Below, piece after piece: positions 56,241 through 63,370 of a stretch of DNA of 64,000 bases. The notes below the pieces were generated by a model that saw only the letters and a program-made list of their open reading frames with translations, made no database searches and was not told the DNA's origin. Positions within the stretch are counted from its first letter, which is position 1. Each line of letters starts with the position of its first letter. Source of the DNA: Phenylobacterium sp. (GTDB lineage: Bacteria > Pseudomonadota > Alphaproteobacteria > Caulobacterales > Caulobacteraceae); assembly GCF_013911965.1 (NCBI RefSeq), contig NZ_JACESE010000010.1, positions 103,431-167,430 on the forward strand. The letters run 5' to 3'. Position numbers and translations under genes: made by a program.

Positions 56241-57830
56241 TCAGGCCGCCTGCGCCTCCACCTCGGCCGGGGCCAGGCGGATCAGGTAGTCGAAGGCCGA
56301 GAGCGCGGCCTTGGAGCCTTCGCCCATGGCGATGACGATCTGCTTGTAGGGCGTCGTCGTCGCATCGCCGGCGGCGAACACGCCGGCGACCGAGGTCTGG
56401 CCCTTGGCGTCCACCTCGATCTCGCCGCGGGGCGAGAGCGCCACGCCGCCCTCGGCCAGCCATTCGGTGTTCGGCACCAGGCCGATCTGGACGAAGATGC
56501 CCTCCAGCTCGACCGTGTGCGACGTGCCCGTGCCGCGGTCGTTGTAGGTCAGGCCCGTCACCTTGCCGCCGTCGCCGAGGACTTCGGTGGTGAGCGCCGA
56601 GGTGATGATGTCGACGTTCTTCAGGCTCTTCAGCTTCCGTTGCAGGACCTCGTCGGCGCGCAGCTTGCCGTCGTATTCGATGAGCGTCACGTGGGCGACG
56701 ATGCCGGCCAGGTCGATGGCGGCCTCCACGCCGGAATTGCCGCCGCCGATCACCGCCACGCGCTTGCCCTTGAAGAGCGGCCCGTCGCAGTGGGGGCAGT
56801 AGGCCACGCCCTTGTTGCGGTACTCCGCCTCGCCCGGCACGTTCATCTGCCGCCAGCGGGCGCCGGTGGCCAGGATGACGGTCTTGGACTTCAGCGTCGC
56901 GCCGTTCTCCAGCTCCACGCCGATCAGGTCGCCGGGCTGCTTGCCCGGGATCAGCCTGGCCGCCTTCTGCAGGTTCATGATGTCGACCTCATAGTCGCGC
57001 ACGTGGCGCTCCAGGTCGGCGGCGAGCTTGGGGCCCTCGGTGTGCGGCGTGCCGGTCAGGTTCTCGATGGCCAGCGTGTCCAGCACCTGGCCGCCGAAGC
57101 GTTCGGCCGCGACGCCGGTGCGGATGCCCTTGCGCGCGGCGTAGATGGCCGCCGCCGCGCCGGCCGGGCCGCCGCCGACGATCAGCACGTCGAAGGGCTC
57201 CTTGGCGGCGATCTTCTCCGCCTCGCGGGCCGCGGCGCCGGTGTCGATCTTGGCCAGGATCTCTTCGAAGCCCATGCGGCCCTGGCCCCAGCTTTCGCCG
57301 TTCAGGAAGACGGTGGGCACGGCCATGATCTTGCGGTCCTCGACCTCGCCCTGAAAGAGCGCGCCGTCGATGGCCACGTGGCGGATGCGCGGGTTCAGCA
57401 CGCTCATCGCGTTCAGCGCCTGCACCACGTCGGGGCAGTTCTGGCACGAGAGCGAGAAGTAGGTTTCGAAGAGGAAGTCGCCGTCCAGCGCCTTCACCTG
57501 TTCGGCGAGGTCCGCCTCGATGCGCGGCGGGTGGCCGCCCACCTGCAGGATGGCCAGCACCAGCGAGGTGAACTCGTGGCCCAGCGGCAGGCCGGCGAAG
57601 GTGACGAAGATGTCGGTCCCCGTCCGGCGGATCTCGAAGGACGGCTTGCGCGCGTCGTCGCCGTCCAGGCGCACGCTCACCTTGCCGCCCGAGACCGAGG
57701 CGATGTCTTCCAGGAGGCCCTTCATCTCGGCCGCCTTGGCCGAGTCGTCGAGCGAGGCCACCAGCTCCACCGGCTGGGTCACGTTCTGCAGATACCCTTG
57801 AAGCTGGGTTTTCAGTCCGGCGTCCAACAT
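56241..57830 (-). CDS. ahpF: Alkyl hydroperoxide reductase subunit F
   Basis: The 529-residue flavoprotein regenerates AhpC with NADH. The N-terminal double-thioredoxin region has C129/C132 (SLSCQNCPD), and the thioredoxin-reductase-like part has [15 protein letters not shown] and C345/C348 (CPHCDGP), the same numbering as the E. coli enzyme. The end is [31 protein letters not shown]. The ATG at 57830 is chosen by family length; the open frame extends 39 codons upstream without similarity. It lies downstream of ahpC on the same strand, with 166 bases between. Confidence 0.97.
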
Positions 57831-57914
57831 TGGTTGCGAGCTCCATGGCGTCGCCGCGCCCTGCGGGTCCGTTGGCCGCAGGCGGGCGGGGGTTCGGGGA
57901 GGAAACGTCTCGTC

Positions 57915-57955
57915 CGGCGGAGGAACCGCCGCCGCAGGTATCCCCACCTGCGGCG
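57915..57955 (-). promoter_or_regulatory. Competing hairpins between ahpC and ahpF
   Basis: A perfect 10-bp stem, CGCCGCAGGT (57930-57939) with ACCTGCGGCG (57946-57955), lies between the two genes. Next to it CGGCGG (57915-57920) can pair with CCGCCG (57926-57931), which overlaps the first stem, so the two are mutually exclusive. This could act as a partial terminator or RNA-processing site setting the AhpC to AhpF ratio. There is no T-run. Confidence 0.45.
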
Positions 57956-57996: not shown

Positions 57997-58563
57997 TTAG
58001 ATCTTGCCGACCAGCTCCAGCGACGGGGCCAGGGTCTTTTCACCCTCTTCCCACTTGGCCGGGCAGACTTCGCCCGGGTGGGCGGCGACGTACTGGGCGG
58101 CCTTGACCTTGCGCAGCAGCTCGGCGGCGTTACGGCCGATGCCCTCGGCGGTCACTTCCATGAACTGGATCACGCCGTCCGGGTCGACCAGGAAGGTGCC
58201 GCGGTCGGCCAGGCCCTGGCCTTCGCGCATAACGCCGAAGTTGTTGGTGATCAGGCCCGAGGGGTCGCCCAGCATGGTGTACTTGATCTTGCCGATGGCC
58301 GGCGAGGAGTCGTGCCAGGCCTTGTGCGAGAAGTGGGTGTCGGTCGAGACCGAATAGATCTCCACGCCCAGCTTCTGGAAGGCGTCGTAGTTGTCGGCCA
58401 GGTCCTCCAGCTCCGTCGGGCAGACGAAGGTGAAGTCGGCCGGATAGAAGAAGAAGACCGACCACTTGCCCTTCAGGTCGGCGTCGCTGACCGTGACGAA
58501 CTTGCCGTCCTTATAGGCCTGGGTGGTGAAGGGAAGGATGGTCGAATTGACGGCGGCAGGCAT
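57997..58563 (-). CDS. ahpC: Alkyl hydroperoxide reductase subunit C (peroxiredoxin)
   Basis: The 188-residue typical two-cysteine peroxiredoxin has the peroxidatic C48 in [15 protein letters not shown] and the resolving C167 in [11 protein letters not shown]. It reduces hydrogen peroxide and organic hydroperoxides and is recycled by AhpF, encoded next downstream. GGAGAG precedes the ATG. The full GGxGxG/YF-type C-terminal features expected of a sensitive AhpC are not obvious. Expression is probably peroxide-induced; see the upstream dyad. Confidence 0.97.
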
Positions 58564-58666: not shown

Positions 58667-58679
58667 GGGGTCGATGGCG

Positions 58680-61600
58680 ACTTGCGTCTCTAGACAGCGG
58701 GATTGATCGCGTGAGCGATCGGACCCCGTTCGTTAAACGTCAGCTGAAATCGAACCTTTAGCCCCAGGCTATCCGCTGAAGCATCGAACTCGGGTGTAAT
58801 TCGAAAAAAGACGGATATATCGGGGGAGTTCGCTTGGATGAAACCATACCCACTCTCCACCTTGGTGATGCTTCCGTTAAACCAACGAGGCGCACCGTTC
58901 TCGTCCCTCACAAACGCCTGCTCTTCACGAACGCGGAGAGAACTCTTCGTTCGGCGAATTTGCTCAAATGCTTCCTTTGCGGCGCTCTCCATTCCGCACA
59001 GAGATAGCTGCCGAGCATGCCAAAACTGTGAGTCCAGATTAGAAGCTCCCTGATTCACACCACGCTTTAGATATTTCAGTATCGTGTGACCGTCATCGAG
59101 CTCTGCGGCGGGGTGCGCCTGGGCATAAAGGCGCGCAAAGCGGAAATTAAGAAGCTTGCTCCCGGGATTTAGATCAAGAGAAGTCTTAAGGGTCTGTAAG
59201 GCTGCAGAAAGGTCACCTTTTGCCGTATGAAGCAGAGCAAGTCGATTTGCGACCAATTCGGCCTTTGGATTGCTCTGGAACGCCCGCGCCAATGACACTA
59301 GTGCTCTGTCTGCATTCCTGAGTTTGCCGGCAAGTTCGGCCTCTGCCATCAAGAGGTACGGCTCGGTAGGATAGCGGCTTAACCCTGCACGTATCACGCT
59401 CTCTGCATCTTGAACGGCAGAGTTGACTGCTTGAGTGCTGAGTGCAGATGGGTTGTCCCCTTCATTCCGAAGGGCTTGGTCCAAATTTGCGAGCGCCACT
59501 TTCGCGAGCGTATGGTGAGCGTGCGAAGAACGACCTTCTGCCACCAGTTGCTTAGCAACCCTTGCCGCATCATTGCGGAAGACAGACGCCTCTAAATCGC
59601 TACGCGCCAACTCCGCGCGACGCAGGGATATCTCCGCAAGTGTGTGTCTCAGAGATGAGGACTTGGGTGCCTCTTCTAACGCCTCTTTCACCAGACGCTC
59701 CGCTCGATCAAGCCCATCACGGGTTCCTGCCTTGCGTAGCTCATATAACGCCCACTGATGCAGGACGCCGACAGTCCGGCCTACGCTCCGGGCGGCAGAC
59801 TCGTAGACGGTAATCCCCATGACCCGGTCGGGGAGCATGTCGGCGACTTGTCTTGCCTTTATCAGCTCATAGAGAACGAGCTCATCATAGGAATACTCTG
59901 TGTTCAGGTGGTCAATCAGACGGAGTATTATCTCCTGCTTGTGAGCCGGTGTCCTAGCTGCGCGTTCAAATACAACCTCTGCGATATAATTATGGCGCGC
60001 TTGATAAACAAAGTCTCCCTGGAATCTCCGGTTGGATACGACCACCACATGTTCGAGCGGTTTAAAAAAGCGCCGTTGAAACTCATCGAAGCCGATACCG
60101 TGTACACGCGAAATGAGACCTGCTCGGACTGGCGGCCCTAATCTGTGAAGTGCACATATGTCGAGGTACAGGCTCTTTGCTTCGGCGGAAGGGATGCCAT
60201 CATACTCGCTCTCAAGTATGTCTTCGAAAGAGGCGCCATTTGTCGCTTCGTGGAGTGCTACGAGCAACTGGCGCCCCGCCATGTCACTGAAGCGCGACAC
60301 GCGGTCGTCATGACTCAGAGACTTCAACTCGCCAAGGGAGCCGTGCTGCTCTAGAAGGCGGATCAGTTCATCGATCTCAGGCGCCGATAGCAATTCGAGT
60401 GTTATGCTATCGTCCGCGAATAGGTCTGACTCAGACTCAACTGAGTTCCACTCATTCACCCTCTCGGCGCCCACGATGACCAGGGGCCATTTTTTTACGG
60501 TCCCCTTTTCGATTAGGTGGCGGATGTCATCGACATGTTCACCCACTTCATCGATGAACAGGTACAGGGGCTGGTTTGTGAGGCCGACAATCTCCTCAAC
60601 AGCCTCTATGTCTATACGGGAGCCTGGGCGCAGCATTAACACCATACGCTCGTATGTCCCGGCGGCCTCCCAGGCGATCCTGCGGAGGGCCACAGACTTT
60701 CCTGAGCCGGCATGGCCTTTTATGAGGTCGAACTTGGGAATCGATTCCCTCGGGGTTGGGATTATCCACCGACGCAGCGCTTGGTTGATAGGTGTTCGGC
60801 GAACATCGAGATTCGCCTCTATCGGAAACCAACCTTGGTTCACACCAGAGTAGAAAGCCTTCGCGTCTCCGGTAGAAGTGCCTTCGGCGACCACATGCTC
60901 AAAGACGGTTTCTAGCGACTGAATAAGGTGTGAACTCTCCCGCGCGGATTTGTGGCTAATAAAGCGAGTGAGTGTTGTTGAGCGAGTTTCGCGCGCCAGC
61001 GTAGCAAGCTGGAGGGATGCTGCTGGGAGTCCGCTTTTTAGACCAGATAGGAACTGCTCTAATGTCATGTCGACAGGCTCAAAACGCCTATCCCGCCAGT
61101 AGCCCTCGTAAAGCTCGTCCCACCCCGGGCGGATGATATAATGCCTGGGTCGCCCATCGCGCTCGTCGATCAGGCGCTGAAATACTCTACGCATATTCTC
61201 GTCGGACATCCCATATCCGACAATCGCCATTGGATTGTTTTGGCCCCACTCAAGGAAAGTTTTGAACAGATTTGATCGTCCTGTTGAGTGACCGATAATT
61301 TGCTCAGTGCTAGTGATTAGTGGGGCGTCAATGTCCTCGTGCTCCGTCAGGCAACCATGTAGCTTTAGATACACAGTTTTAGATCGTGATATCTCATCAA
61401 GAGCAACATCACCGTCACGTGAAGAGACGACTAAACGGTCGCCTTGGCCTGCCTGCTCGTAAGCACGCTCGACCAGAAGGTCGTAGTTTGTTGTAGCTAT
61501 TCCCGCCCAAGGAAGCGTGGGAATAATATAGTGCGCGGTGGTTGGCGCGAAGTCGACTAAGTTGTCGTGTATGAACTTCTGAAGTTCTCTAGTGCTTCGG

Positions 61601-61890
61601 GTTGAGCAGGCTAGATCATAGGCGTCTTTGAGACCGAGAGTCTGATGGGCGGGCTTGAGGAAGCGTTCTACAATGAGATCCCTGAGCCCGTTGCCGTCGG
61701 GCATTTTCAGACCTGAAGTGGTCTCGGCACCCTTCGAGGCACCCGCTCCGAGGAAGAGGACGAGCCGACCTTCTCTAGCCGCGGCTAGTAGCCCTTCTGG
61801 AATATGTCCGGGAGTTCTCATAACACTGTCATCAACGAGTCGTTCGGCAAGCGCAACCATTGCGGGTTGTCGCGCTATGTTCTCTATTAG
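58680..61890. other. Low-G+C inserted segment (putative defence islet)
   Basis: Between ahpC and the flavin monooxygenase gene, base composition falls from about 70% to near 50% G+C and codon use becomes A+T-tolerant. The change is abrupt near 61890, inside the last codons of the monooxygenase gene, and near 58680 on the other side. The segment holds one gene and no integrase, transposase or tRNA. It is best read as a horizontally acquired single-gene cargo. Confidence 0.8.
58690..61821 (-). CDS. SIR2-STAND NTPase-TPR-cold-shock-like domain protein (putative anti-phage defence)
   Basis: From the ATG at 61821 this is a 1,043-residue multidomain protein. Residues 15-240 form a SIR2-like NAD-binding domain with FLGAGAS (23-29), TTNYD (110-114), the histidine H155 in LKLHG and IVGYGMSDENM (200-210). 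A STAND-type P-loop NTPase follows, with GHAGSGKS (369-376) and Walker B LYLFIDEV (419-426). A long helical region with TPR-like repeats (about 650-950) comes next. The last 65 residues, with SGYGFI and ISVFFRITPEF, look like a cold-shock/S1-type OB fold. SIR2-STAND proteins such as Avs5-type systems sense phage proteins and deplete NAD. The low G+C content supports transfer. An alternative start at 61860 overlaps the upstream gene. No partner gene is seen. Confidence 0.85.
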   Translation of the reverse strand: MRTPGHIPEGLLAAAREGRLVLFLGAGASKGAETTSGLKMPDGNGLRDLIVERFLKPAHQTLGLKDAYDLACSTRSTRELQKFIHDNLVDFAPTTAHYIIPTLPWAGIATTNYDLLVERAYEQAGQGDRLVVSSRDGDVALDEISRSKTVYLKLHGCLTEHEDIDAPLITSTEQIIGHSTGRSNLFKTFLEWGQNNPMAIVGYGMSDENMRRVFQRLIDERDGRPRHYIIRPGWDELYEGYWRDRRFEPVDMTLEQFLSGLKSGLPAASLQLATLARETRSTTLTRFISHKSARESSHLIQSLETVFEHVVAEGTSTGDAKAFYSGVNQGWFPIEANLDVRRTPINQALRRWIIPTPRESIPKFDLIKGHAGSGKSVALRRIAWEAAGTYERMVLMLRPGSRIDIEAVEEIVGLTNQPLYLFIDEVGEHVDDIRHLIEKGTVKKWPLVIVGAERVNEWNSVESESDLFADDSITLELLSAPEIDELIRLLEQHGSLGELKSLSHDDRVSRFSDMAGRQLLVALHEATNGASFEDILESEYDGIPSAEAKSLYLDICALHRLGPPVRAGLISRVHGIGFDEFQRRFFKPLEHVVVVSNRRFQGDFVYQARHNYIAEVVFERAARTPAHKQEIILRLIDHLNTEYSYDELVLYELIKARQVADMLPDRVMGITVYESAARSVGRTVGVLHQWALYELRKAGTRDGLDRAERLVKEALEEAPKSSSLRHTLAEISLRRAELARSDLEASVFRNDAARVAKQLVAEGRSSHAHHTLAKVALANLDQALRNEGDNPSALSTQAVNSAVQDAESVIRAGLSRYPTEPYLLMAEAELAGKLRNADRALVSLARAFQSNPKAELVANRLALLHTAKGDLSAALQTLKTSLDLNPGSKLLNFRFARLYAQAHPAAELDDGHTILKYLKRGVNQGASNLDSQFWHARQLSLCGMESAAKEAFEQIRRTKSSLRVREEQAFVRDENGAPRWFNGSITKVESGYGFIQANSPDISVFFRITPEFDASADSLGLKVRFQLTFNERGPIAHAINPAV

Positions 61891-63196
61891 CCCGCCGCTC
61901 CCCCCGCCCGATCTCCTTCATCAGGTCATGCACATAGATCCCGAAATCCACCTGGATCGTGTGGCGGGCGGATTCGTAGAAGTGGCCCATGTGCAGGGCT
62001 TCGTCCTTGGCGATGATGGCCTTCATCTCCGCCTCTGAGGGCGGGGCGTAGCGGCCGGTGAGGCAGGCGGCGACCAGCTTGGCCTGCTGCTCGGCGAAGT
62101 TGACCAGCGTCGGCAGGGGCTGGGCCAGGCCCATGAAGAAGAGGTCGGGCACGCCCGGCTTCATCATCCGCTTGAAGAGGGGGAAGCGGTGGGCCGCGTC
62201 GGGCTTCAGCGCCTCGTCCTCGAAGAAGGGGAAGCTGATCTTGTAGCCGGTGGCGTAGATGATGGCGTCCACGGCCTCGACGCTGCCGTCCTCGAAACGG
62301 ACCTTATCGCCCATCAGCTCGGCGATGTTCGGCTTGACCTTCACGTCGCCGCAGCCGACCCGCGTCAGGAACTCGCCCGAGACGGACGGGTGGGCGGTCA
62401 GCGGCTCGTGGTCCGGCTTGGGCAGGCCGTAGTCCTCCATGTTGCCGACGATCTTGCGGATGCGCTTGGCCGCCAGGCGCAGGCCGAGCCTGCGCGGCAT
62501 CCAGTGGGGCATGGAGGCTTTGTCGGCCACCTTGCCGTTCATGTATTTCGGCAGCACCCAGACGCCCCGGCGGGCGGCGACCCACAGGTTCCTGGCGATC
62601 GGCCGCTGGGAGAGCTCCGAGGCGATATCCATCGCCGAATTGCCCATGCCGACGACGACCACGTTCTTGCCGCGCAGATCGACCGGCGCGAACGGGCTGC
62701 GATAGTCATGCGCGTGGAAGGCCGCGCCGTTGAAGGTCCCGGGATAGTCCGGATAGCGCGGGTCCCAGTGGTGGCCGTTGGCGACGATCAGCACGTCGTA
62801 GGCCCTGGTCTCTCCGGTCGAGAGCGTCACCTCCCAGCCGCCGCCGTCCTTTCGCACCGCCTTCGTCACCGCGGTGTTGAAGGTGATGTGCGGGCGCAGG
62901 CCGAAGCGGTCCACGTAGCTTCGGAAGTAATCCAGGATCTGGCTGTGATGGGGGAAGTCGGGCCAGTCGTCGGGGACGGGCAGGTCCTCGAAGGCCAGGC
63001 GCCACTTGGACGTGTCGATATGCAGGCTCTCGTAACAGGCCGACAGGCCGTTGGGATTGCCGAAGTACCAGTTGCCGCCGATGTCGTCGGACATGTCGTA
63101 GACGTCGAAGGGAACGCCCGCGTCCTTCAGCCTCTTGGCCGTGGTGAAGCCCGAGGCCCCGGCCCCGATGATGCAGCACGTCGGATAGCGCGCCAT
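61832..63196 (-). CDS. Flavin-containing monooxygenase family protein
   Basis: The 454-residue protein has the FAD loop GAGASG (11-16), the NADPH loop VVGMGNSAMDIASEL, and an FMO/BVMO-type fingerprint FNGAAFHAHDY. It would oxygenate a soft nucleophile or ketone using FAD, NADPH and oxygen. GGGAGGAG lies upstream of the ATG at 63196. The last 18-20 codons (after GERRA) have A+T-rich codons unlike the rest. They appear to come from the inserted segment, so the native C-terminus has probably been replaced. The core fold is complete and the enzyme may still work. Confidence 0.9.
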   Translation of the reverse strand: MARYPTCCIIGAGASGFTTAKRLKDAGVPFDVYDMSDDIGGNWYFGNPNGLSACYESLHIDTSKWRLAFEDLPVPDDWPDFPHHSQILDYFRSYVDRFGLRPHITFNTAVTKAVRKDGGGWEVTLSTGETRAYDVLIVANGHHWDPRYPDYPGTFNGAAFHAHDYRSPFAPVDLRGKNVVVVGMGNSAMDIASELSQRPIARNLWVAARRGVWVLPKYMNGKVADKASMPHWMPRRLGLRLAAKRIRKIVGNMEDYGLPKPDHEPLTAHPSVSGEFLTRVGCGDVKVKPNIAELMGDKVRFEDGSVEAVDAIIYATGYKISFPFFEDEALKPDAAHRFPLFKRMMKPGVPDLFFMGLAQPLPTLVNFAEQQAKLVAACLTGRYAPPSEAEMKAIIAKDEALHMGHFYESARHTIQVDFGIYVHDLMKEIGRGERRANREHSATTRNGCACRTTR

Positions 63197-63310
63197 CCTG
63201 TGGTCTCCTCCCGCCCGCCCGTTTGGGGTCTTGAGGGGGAGCATGGCGGGGTTTCCGTTGGGGCGGGCAACGAGGGCGCAGCCGCAGACCCCCTCAGGCG
63301 CTCCGCGCCA

Positions 63311-63332
63311 GCTCCCCCTGAAAAGGGGGAGC
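63311..63332. repeat. Intergenic hairpin repeat, copy 1 (GCTCCCCC type)
   Basis: GCTCCCCC (63311-63318) pairs with GGGGGAGC (63325-63332) around TGAAAA. It is preceded by CCCCTCAGGCGCTCCGCGCC, the usual flank of this alphaproteobacterial intergenic repeat family. Confidence 0.65.
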
Positions 63333-63370
63333 ATCTTTCGCACCGAGCGCGCCAGACGCACTGCGCAGAT

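Follow-up and report, generated by a model that had tools for sequence, protein, structure and literature searches.

A single open frame in the 64-kb window (the whole stretch of Phenylobacterium sp. DNA that was analyzed, 64,000 nucleotides) probably encodes a mobile, one-gene, NLR-like abortive-infection protein with the mechanism described below. The protein is related to Avs5 and would comprise a SIR2 NADase, a STAND switch, and a sensor built from TPRs and a cold-shock domain, a functional assignment drawn from family and location. The proposal builds on the domain order, the intact catalytic and Walker residues, the cold-shock fold call, the foreign composition, the lack of a widely conserved partner gene, and two locations, namely one published defense hotspot for the Escherichia coli member and one swap site for the window copy. 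SIR2-STAND defense proteins are already known, as is the SAMD9 domain order, published in 2017 with bacterial members noted (PMC5445408). A search of the main texts of open-licence papers found none that treats bacterial SIR2-nSTAND5-TPR proteins with a terminal cold-shock domain as a defense family.

Gene Composition and Domain Architecture

The original prediction placed a one-gene SIR2-STAND-TPR system at 58690..61821 without naming a strand, and the frame, which lies on the minus strand, held up, with 61821 a likelier start than 61860 because residues 1–16 of the structure model have pLDDT <50 and four of the five relatives in A1 start further in than residue 14 (Table 1). Residue numbers follow the 1056-aa frame, in which H155 and K375, as counted from 61821, are H168 and K388. 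The composition is unlike that of the flanks, as had also been claimed: the gene has a G+C of 0.5405, compared with a mean of 0.7018 (SD 0.0154, minimum 0.676) over 278 overlapping gene-sized segments from the rest of the 64-kb window, and a GC3 of 0.56, compared with 0.92 in ahpC, 0.90 in the FMO-like gene, and 0.94 in ahpF. The composition is foreign, and the gene was probably acquired from another microbe.

The predicted SIR2 motifs (GAGAS, 38–42; TTNYD, 123–127; LHG, 167–169) are present in the translation, as are the P-loop (GHAGSGKS) and a Walker-B-type motif (LFIDE, 434–438), and the Pfam search suggested as a check on the SIR2_2, nSTAND, and TPR assignments matched all three, with SIR2_2 at 1.5e-19 and the other two as given in Table 1; the helical repeat region also appears as helical hairpins in the AF2 model. 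The protein shows sequence hallmarks of two groups: for SIR2-domain defense NADases, a SIR2 fold with GAGxS, TTNxD, and HG motifs, and for STAND NTPases, a STAND-type P-loop NTPase that has both Walker motifs and leads into repeats. Across the aligned members, SIR2_2 and nSTAND5 were each matched in 36/36 and TPR_19 in 34/36. Invariant positions in alignment A2 (36 rows, the window's included) are G38, G40, T124, N125, D127, G169, D220, G385, G387, and K388, with H168 (35/36) and D437 (34/36) nearly so. Left out of A2 were a split frame (L024), a frame short of the N-terminus (L029), near-copies (L037, L046, L088), partial sequences (L044, L050, L055, L057, L062), and the remaining more distant loci.

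Table 1. Coordinates of the gene, its domains, and the surrounding site in the window.
Feature	Position	Strand	Basis or remark
Whole open frame, SIR2-nSTAND5-TPR-cold-shock protein	58690..61860	minus	1056 codons/aa; open-frame listing
Candidate start, residue 14 of the 1056-aa frame	61821	minus	product of 1043 aa
SIR2 effector domain, residues ∼20–280	61021..61803	minus	SIR2_2 at 121–262, conservation, ThsA/KomC/DSR2 chain matches; catalytic N125, D127, H168
nSTAND_NTPase5 domain, residues 335–476	60433..60858	minus	2.1e-24; 36/36 members
Walker A GHAGSGKS, residues 382–389	60694..60717	minus	K388 in 36/36 rows
Rest of STAND module, mostly helical, residues ∼480–700	59761..60423	minus	AF2 secondary structure; partly aligned with EfAvs5
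TPR-type helical repeats, residues ∼700–985	58906..59763	minus	TPR_19 at 849–900, 7.6e-6; helical hairpins in model; 34/36 members
Predicted cold-shock-type OB domain, five strands, residues ∼993–1054	58699..58884	minus	family profile, AF2 model, Foldseek
Swap site, differing between same-genus genomes	58677..61890		3214 bp here; FMO-like gene 3′ end to boundary upstream of ahpC
Left neighbor, FMO-like flavoprotein gene	61832..63361	minus	flank conserved in five relatives; name from sequence reading
Right neighbor, ahpC-like peroxiredoxin gene	57997..58563	minus	conserved flank
ahpF, after ahpC	56241–57947		name from annotation of plasmid match

The last ∼62 residues are predicted to be a cold-shock-type OB domain, on which the family profile, the AF2 model, and Foldseek agree. 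The original prediction was right that the C-terminal architecture differs from that of the best-known members but missed that the differing part is this domain. The tail was modeled at a pLDDT of 93.5 as a five-stranded OB fold (14/14 Foldseek matches at E ≤ 0.001), and the tail profile found the domain in all five full-length members outside A2 (L171, L212, L014, L015, and L016, held back or fetched later) and in 0/12 more distant relatives. Aromatic residues are kept in A2 at positions 1005 (33/36), 1007 (31/36), and 1018 (34/36, F/Y), and tail identity to the window row is 13–32%. In 9/36 rows, an H occupies the position that we equate, by our own reading of the RNP1/RNP2 ligand motif, with the histidine of RNP2.

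Several properties of the tail count against the main proposal. The Pfam CSD match of the window protein alone (0.0022, 18.3 bits; 23.8 bits in a genome search) is below the 27-bit cut-off, and a narrow profile from 20 ordinary cold-shock domains matched 8/36 members and 1/5 outside members and did not find the window protein. Of the aromatic positions that contact the ligand in cold-shock domains, only the three above are widely kept, nor is the tail basic (5 K+R, 6 D+E).

Distribution and Genomic Context

Full-length relatives share 19–34% identity and are sparse, yet occur in several phyla, on plasmids (17 records), and on viral contigs, where an alignment query recovered 16 loci and a single-protein scan gave seven stretches that fit the pattern, none of them relatives. 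Of 60 genomes of host relatives, 11 matched at E ≤ 0.001; the match spans the full length in the window's own genome alone, and the other 10 matched over SIR2 or TPR stretches. The NTPase profile matched nine of 398 genomes of the phylum at E ≤ 1e-12, own genome included. The cold-shock tail was not found by the A3 profile in the three best other NTPase matches (L204–L206, 819–840 aa), and thus no swapped effector with a cold-shock tail was found among the best NTPase matches in these 398 genomes. The N-terminus of L211 reads as a calcineurin-type domain.

Recombinases excepted, no neighbor family recurred widely across members, in line with the predicted one-gene unit; in a scan that used 96 of 167 neighbor frames, the family neighbors also included housekeeping genes, which counts against the main proposal. 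The E. coli member occupies the psu-int interval of a P4-like satellite, reported as an anti-phage hotspot in which defense by a TIR-STAND-TPR protein has been demonstrated (PMC9122126).

The window copy lies outside such an interval and occupies a different, sharply bounded site between the FMO-like gene, whose last codons vary between relatives, and ahpC. Five relatives keep both flanking genes with other content between them, and the cargo in one same-genus genome is a TIR-like gene. Six swap-site genes were compared with Pfam (E ≤ 0.01), and the sole match came from the 841-aa cargo of G001 (AAA_16, 7.5e-7). By sequence reading, the N-terminus of this cargo appears restriction-type. The cargos of G071, G068, and G062, for which both flanks are defined, had no Pfam match and a G+C of 0.60–0.64, and the site is therefore not established as a defense site throughout. 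The E. coli P4-satellite copy and the bounded chromosomal site beside ahpC are convenient places to begin testing the family and looking for further cargo.

Proposed Mechanism and Alternatives

In the resting state, the TPR/cold-shock half would keep the STAND NTPase closed. A signal, presumably phage-derived, would bind this half, upon which the STAND domain would swap its nucleotide and the protein would oligomerize. A filament of the Avs5 kind is the probable form of the oligomer, and the N-terminal SIR2 domains clustered in it would then act as an NADase, draining the NAD+ of the infected cell before phage progeny form. Repeats and cold-shock domain may act together in reading the signal, with the cold-shock domain contacting single-stranded nucleic acid, for which RNA is the likeliest candidate; we make this suggestion tentatively and put it somewhat short of an even chance. 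Such a nucleic-acid trigger would depart from Avs5, which is reported to be triggered by a phage protein (PMC12931631). Should the tail sense nucleic acid, this STAND receptor would have, alongside its repeats, a module that can be identified as binding the ligand.

Alternatively, the defense mechanism could be the same but with a phage protein as the trigger, recognized by the TPRs as in Avs5 and DSR2, and with the cold-shock domain a structural cap or autoinhibitory element that has no nucleic-acid ligand. This is a plausible reading, if not quite a probable one: the family has other residues at several of the ligand positions of cold-shock domains, PaAvs5 is reported to be activated by the phage protein JADA, with its repeat domain essential (PMC12931631), and DSR2 reportedly by a tail tube protein; against it, the three aromatic positions are held despite the low tail identity. 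Carriage by plasmids and satellites would suit a protein aimed mainly at plasmids or rival mobile elements, but Avs5, the nearest studied relative, is reported to act against phages (PMC12931631), and we regard this target as improbable.

SIR2 folds are chemically versatile, and the domain might make a signal or modify a protein and deplete no NAD+; this is quite improbable given that the solved SIR2 chains closest to it (ThsA, KomC, DSR2, EfAvs5) hydrolyze NAD in defense systems and that no partner gene able to receive a signal recurs. Least probable by far is a host stress or redox regulator tied to the adjoining ahpC-ahpF and FMO-like genes, an idea suggested by that adjacency and by cold-shock domains being best known from stress proteins. 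It was rejected on the other content between the kept flanks in the five relatives, the foreign composition, and the lack of recurrence of these redox neighbors in other members; the single full-length match among the 60 host relatives also speaks against it.

Comparison With Known Systems

The predicted kinship with Avs5 was supported: among PDB chains, the family NTPase profile matched EfAvs5 (9jap) best (8.5e-12), as did the whole AF2 model by Foldseek (5.4e-25), which also matched SAMD9, the AVAST5 filament, and DSR2. Avs5 (AVAST type 5; EfAvs5, the AVAST5 filament 9nc9, and PaAvs5) shares the N-terminal SIR2, central STAND NTPase, and C-terminal helical repeats; however, it ends in repeats (TPR, Sel1, PPR), whereas the TPRs of the window protein run on into the cold-shock-type domain, and the window protein is longer (1043–1056 aa, against 869 aa for the EfAvs5 chain). 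PaAvs5 is also reported to have nSTAND3 (PF20720) (PMC12931631) in place of nSTAND5. The window protein matches 14 Pfam families at E ≤ 1, nSTAND3 not among them, but in the family nSTAND3 was matched at E ≤ 0.1 in 17/36 members (best 2.2e-6), compared with 36/36 for nSTAND5; the two are therefore related.

DSR2, ThsA, and KomC share the SIR2 domain, their chains being matched by the family profile at 9e-19 to 6.4e-24, but their family models match the SIR2 part only; the full-length Dsr1/Dsr2 equivalog models NF041819 and NF041818, with cut-offs of 1400 bits, scored 29.9 and 11, again over the SIR2 part only. The Retron Se72 and CSD_V cold-shock effector models, by library name a precedent for a cold-shock domain in a defense system, matched the tail weakly (0.014 and 0.0035) and describe a separate small protein (62–64 model positions), whereas here the domain is the last of a STAND protein. 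The P4-satellite hotspot also carries TIR-NLR proteins and others of the STAND-repeat type, in the same psu-int interval as the E. coli member. The report on it mentions proteins that combine STAND and C-terminal repeats with SIR2 where others have TIR, and these may or may not include the family with the cold-shock tail; the term "cold shock" is absent from the report's main text (PMC9122126).

SAMD9/SAMD9L, the former a human antiviral protein, are reported to have the same order of SIR2-like, STAND-like, TPR, and cold-shock-like OB domains (PMC5445408), an order that the window protein reproduces with its SIR2 catalytic residues and Walker lysine intact, and SAMD9 is the second-best Foldseek match of the whole model (9.3e-20; TM-score 0.38 by query length). 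This fold match is not special to the window family, since a similarity in fold to SAMD9 is reported for PaAvs5 as well (PMC12931631); moreover, the NTPase profile matched SAMD9 weakly (0.003) and the tail profile found no SAMD9 chain at E ≤ 1. In SAMD9, the Walker lysine is reportedly replaced by glycine and an AlbA-type (tRNase) domain, lost in some members, precedes SIR2 (PMC5445408), whereas K388 is kept in 36/36 rows of A2 and SIR2 of the window protein starts at about residue 20, with no Pfam match to an AlbA/tRNase domain at E ≤ 1. It is conceivable, though rather unlikely, that the family represents a catalytically intact bacterial SAMD9 core, an NAD-consuming STAND receptor whose TPRs and cold-shock OB domain detect viral RNA or disturbed host RNA; in that case, E. 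coli and the one-gene system from the P4-like satellite could serve to determine what the SAMD9 OB domain senses.

Domain architecture and composition of the window gene

The SIR2, P-loop/Walker B, and helical-repeat motifs claimed in the original prediction are present in the window protein (1,056 aa, or 1,043 aa from the likelier start; residues are numbered on the longer frame), and the profile search proposed as a check returned SIR2, nSTAND, and TPR matches far beyond chance (Table). The gene's composition is also unlike that of its flanks, as had been claimed, with a G+C of 0.5405 versus a mean of 0.7018 elsewhere in the window (278 overlapping same-size windows, none <0.676) and a GC3 of 0.56 versus 0.90–0.94 in ahpC, ahpF, and the FMO-like flavoprotein gene. 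The original observation was confirmed, and its interpretation was partly supported and extended.

Table. Coordinates and contents of the window gene, the swap site in Phenylobacterium genomes (G numbers), and other loci (L numbers).
Feature	Position	Strand	Size	G+C	Content or basis
Window gene	61860 or (likelier) 61821 to 58690	−			open frame
SIR2_2	residues 121–262				Pfam profile, E 1.5e-19
nSTAND_NTPase5	residues 335–476				Pfam profile, E 2.1e-24
TPR_19	residues 849–900				Pfam profile, E 7.6e-6
Swap site, window			3,214 bp	0.54	SIR2 gene
Swap site, G001	L147 1612–4137	+	2,710 bp	0.50	841-aa AAA_16 protein
Swap site, G005	L146 964–2061	−	1,152 bp	0.46	365-aa protein
Swap site, G071			1,636 bp	0.60	genes
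Swap site, G068 and G062			1,369 and 1,371 bp	0.64 and 0.63	mutually similar small genes
Swap site, G476			about 0.6 kb
Swap site, G492			about 1.2 kb
FMO-like gene, last codons	61832–61890 (window); L145–L148	− (window)			variable among relatives
Klebsiella pINF281.9 copy	L017 6995–10015	+			annotated as two pieces
Mucilaginibacter copy	L024 7992–11093	+	385 + 644 aa		two frames
nSTAND5-type relative	L211 700–3558	−	953 aa		profile match 8.2e-14
Serine recombinase gene	L043 7139–7783
Serine recombinase gene	L046 327–920
Serine recombinase gene	L051 7209–7769
Serine recombinase gene	L036 7124–8092

A C-terminus differing from the best-known members had been foreseen correctly, but its nature, a cold-shock-type domain in the last ∼62 residues, had been missed. 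In the window protein alone, this tail matched the Pfam cold-shock domain below threshold (E 0.0022, 18.3 bits, cut-off 27). A profile of the C-termini of 36 full-length family members gave 60 PDB matches at E ≤ 1. Each of the 24 best was a cold-shock protein or Unr, with E values of 1e-11 for Unr and 1.9e-10 for CspA, and a small number of the lowest-ranked matches were unrelated by name. The AlphaFold2 model from the same alignment was a five-stranded fold (mean pLDDT 93.5), and every one of its 14 Foldseek hits at E ≤ 0.001 was a cold-shock domain. Besides its own 36 rows, matched by construction, the profile found the domain in five of five full-length members outside the alignment, in none of 36 reversed sequences, and in none of 12 more distant relatives (11 in the range of 611–840 aa by frames and one of 1,053 aa, with L063 and L091 near-copies). 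Against this, a narrow profile from 20 ordinary cold-shock domains matched eight of the 36 members and one of the five outside members, and did not match the window protein. Aromatics are conserved at 1005 (33/36), 1007 (31/36), and 1018 (34/36 as F/Y), which we take to be ligand-contact positions of cold-shock domains; other such positions are not conserved, and the domain is not basic. Weighing these results together, we regard the cold-shock fold of the tail as firm.

Distribution and conservation of the family

Homologs were recovered from plasmids by tBLASTn (17 records, 14 covering ≥80% of the query, all <60% identity) and by alignment-led scans from genomes (64 loci) and viral contigs (16 loci), many partial or distant. 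The alignment of 36 full-length members combines 30 genome loci and five viral loci with the window protein, to which they are 19–34% identical. At E ≤ 0.1, all 36 matched SIR2_2 and nSTAND5, 34 matched TPR_19, and 17 each matched the cold-shock domain (best 1.2e-9) and nSTAND3 (best 2.2e-6). N125, D127, D220, and Walker K388 are invariant, and the SIR2 catalytic H168 is retained in 35 rows and replaced by M in one. The family is sparse, as only one of 384 other genomes of the class matched at E ≤ 1e-40. The tree placed 12 rows with names that we take as alphaproteobacterial in one group with good support (100/99) and left the window protein outside it, within an unresolved fork. The AhpF encoded in the window has its best plasmid matches in Azospirillum, at up to 77.5% identity, as would be expected of an alphaproteobacterial host. 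Given this placement and the gene's composition, the most economical interpretation is that the gene was acquired laterally.

The Klebsiella plasmid pINF281.9 copy may be broken, since it is annotated in two pieces; a two-product annotation is common to eight of the nine Klebsiella plasmid records. The two frames in Mucilaginibacter reflect a frameshift or sequencing error. The N-terminus of the L211 protein reads as a calcineurin-type phosphoesterase, and thus other effectors may be attached to STAND cores of this kind.

Genomic context of family members

Among 43 loci, some of them near-copies, the sole neighbor group present in more than four was serine recombinases (12 loci, 45 bp to 5 kb away), with an integrase group in four; because nothing else recurred so often, the family gene is a one-gene unit, in agreement with the single-gene system originally proposed. 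At L043, L046, L051, and L036, a serine recombinase gene is found about 210 bp or less from the family gene, and such neighbors may be a means of movement of the unit. Among 96 near neighbors, PADLOC (E ≤ 1e-15; best 25 of 36 families) identified type IIG restriction enzymes, DrmMI, and mad2 (two members each) and AbiD and ThsA (one each), and Pfam (best 25 of 100 families) identified resolvases (four), phage genes, and housekeeping genes; these counts have no control set and therefore carry little weight as evidence.

Stronger evidence than these tallies comes from Escherichia coli N18-04097, where a P4-like satellite carries a 1,034-aa member in the interval between its psu and integrase genes; this member covers 98% of the window protein at 29.5% identity. 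This strain was the sole BLASTn match to a Klebsiella member among 5,426 E. coli genomes, a count that is a lower bound. Viral contig L086 carries psu- and integrase-like genes with a 99% identical copy; in L087 and L088, copies of 91% identity accompany P4-like genes for primase, capsid, ogr, and integrase. According to PMC9122126, the same psu–integrase interval is a hotspot for anti-phage systems, where a TIR-STAND-TPR protein defends experimentally; the paper also mentions proteins there that join STAND and C-terminal repeats to a SIR2 domain substituted for TIR.

In the window, DNA similarity to five same-genus relatives breaks off on one side at the 3′ terminus of the FMO-like gene (61889–61898) and on the other upstream of ahpC (58676–58677). 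Within 101 genomes of the genus, 27 matched the ahpC region and nine of these (the window's own genome included) reached the right boundary, whose sequence was present in all nine; the left pattern was found in six of eight complete intervals, the search pattern missing G476 and G492. The contents differ between genomes (Table), and we call this interval a swap site. The G005 protein matched a PADLOC TIR effector at 2.8e-8 and had no Pfam match at E ≤ 0.01; of the contents of the site, only this TIR-like gene and the window's SIR2 gene look like NADases. By eye, the N-terminus of the G001 protein resembles a restriction-type nuclease. Where the cargo starts, relatives differ in the final codons of their FMO-like genes, as if cargo exchange also swaps the FMO tail.

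Comparison with Avs5 and SAMD9

The AlphaFold2 model of the whole window protein (pLDDT 83.4) matched EfAvs5 (9jap) at 5.4e-25 and human SAMD9 at 9.3e-20 (TM-score 0.38 by query length), and further matched an AVAST5 filament, DSR2, and a STAND-TPR protein. In sequence comparison, EfAvs5 was the top match of the NTPase profile (8.5e-12), with a SAMD9 chain at 0.003; the tail profile matched no SAMD9 chain in the PDB at E ≤ 1. As reported in PMC12931631, PaAvs5 comprises SIR2, nSTAND3, and repeats and itself matches SAMD9 by fold, and Avs5, triggered by a phage protein and requiring its Walker residues and repeat domain, hydrolyzes NAD+ upon activation. From these findings we infer that the window protein probably shares this cycle of trigger, activation, and NAD+ hydrolysis; filament formation would follow by analogy with the titles of PDB entries and of one cited paper.

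As far as anatomy can say, the window protein works like Avs5; however, it is not classed as Avs5 because nSTAND3, the criterion that PaAvs5 supplies, is not found in it and the cold-shock domain is additional. The family matches the domain order from SIR2 to OB published for SAMD9 in PMC5445408, and that 2017 analysis may have had relatives of the family in its bacterial set. In SAMD9 the Walker lysine is replaced, whereas the lysine and SIR2 residues of the window family are intact, and since the window protein lacks both this change and an AlbA domain, it is not classed as SAMD9 either. It is a probable SIR2-STAND anti-phage protein, which is a known kind, in a variant form that combines nSTAND5 with a cold-shock tail.
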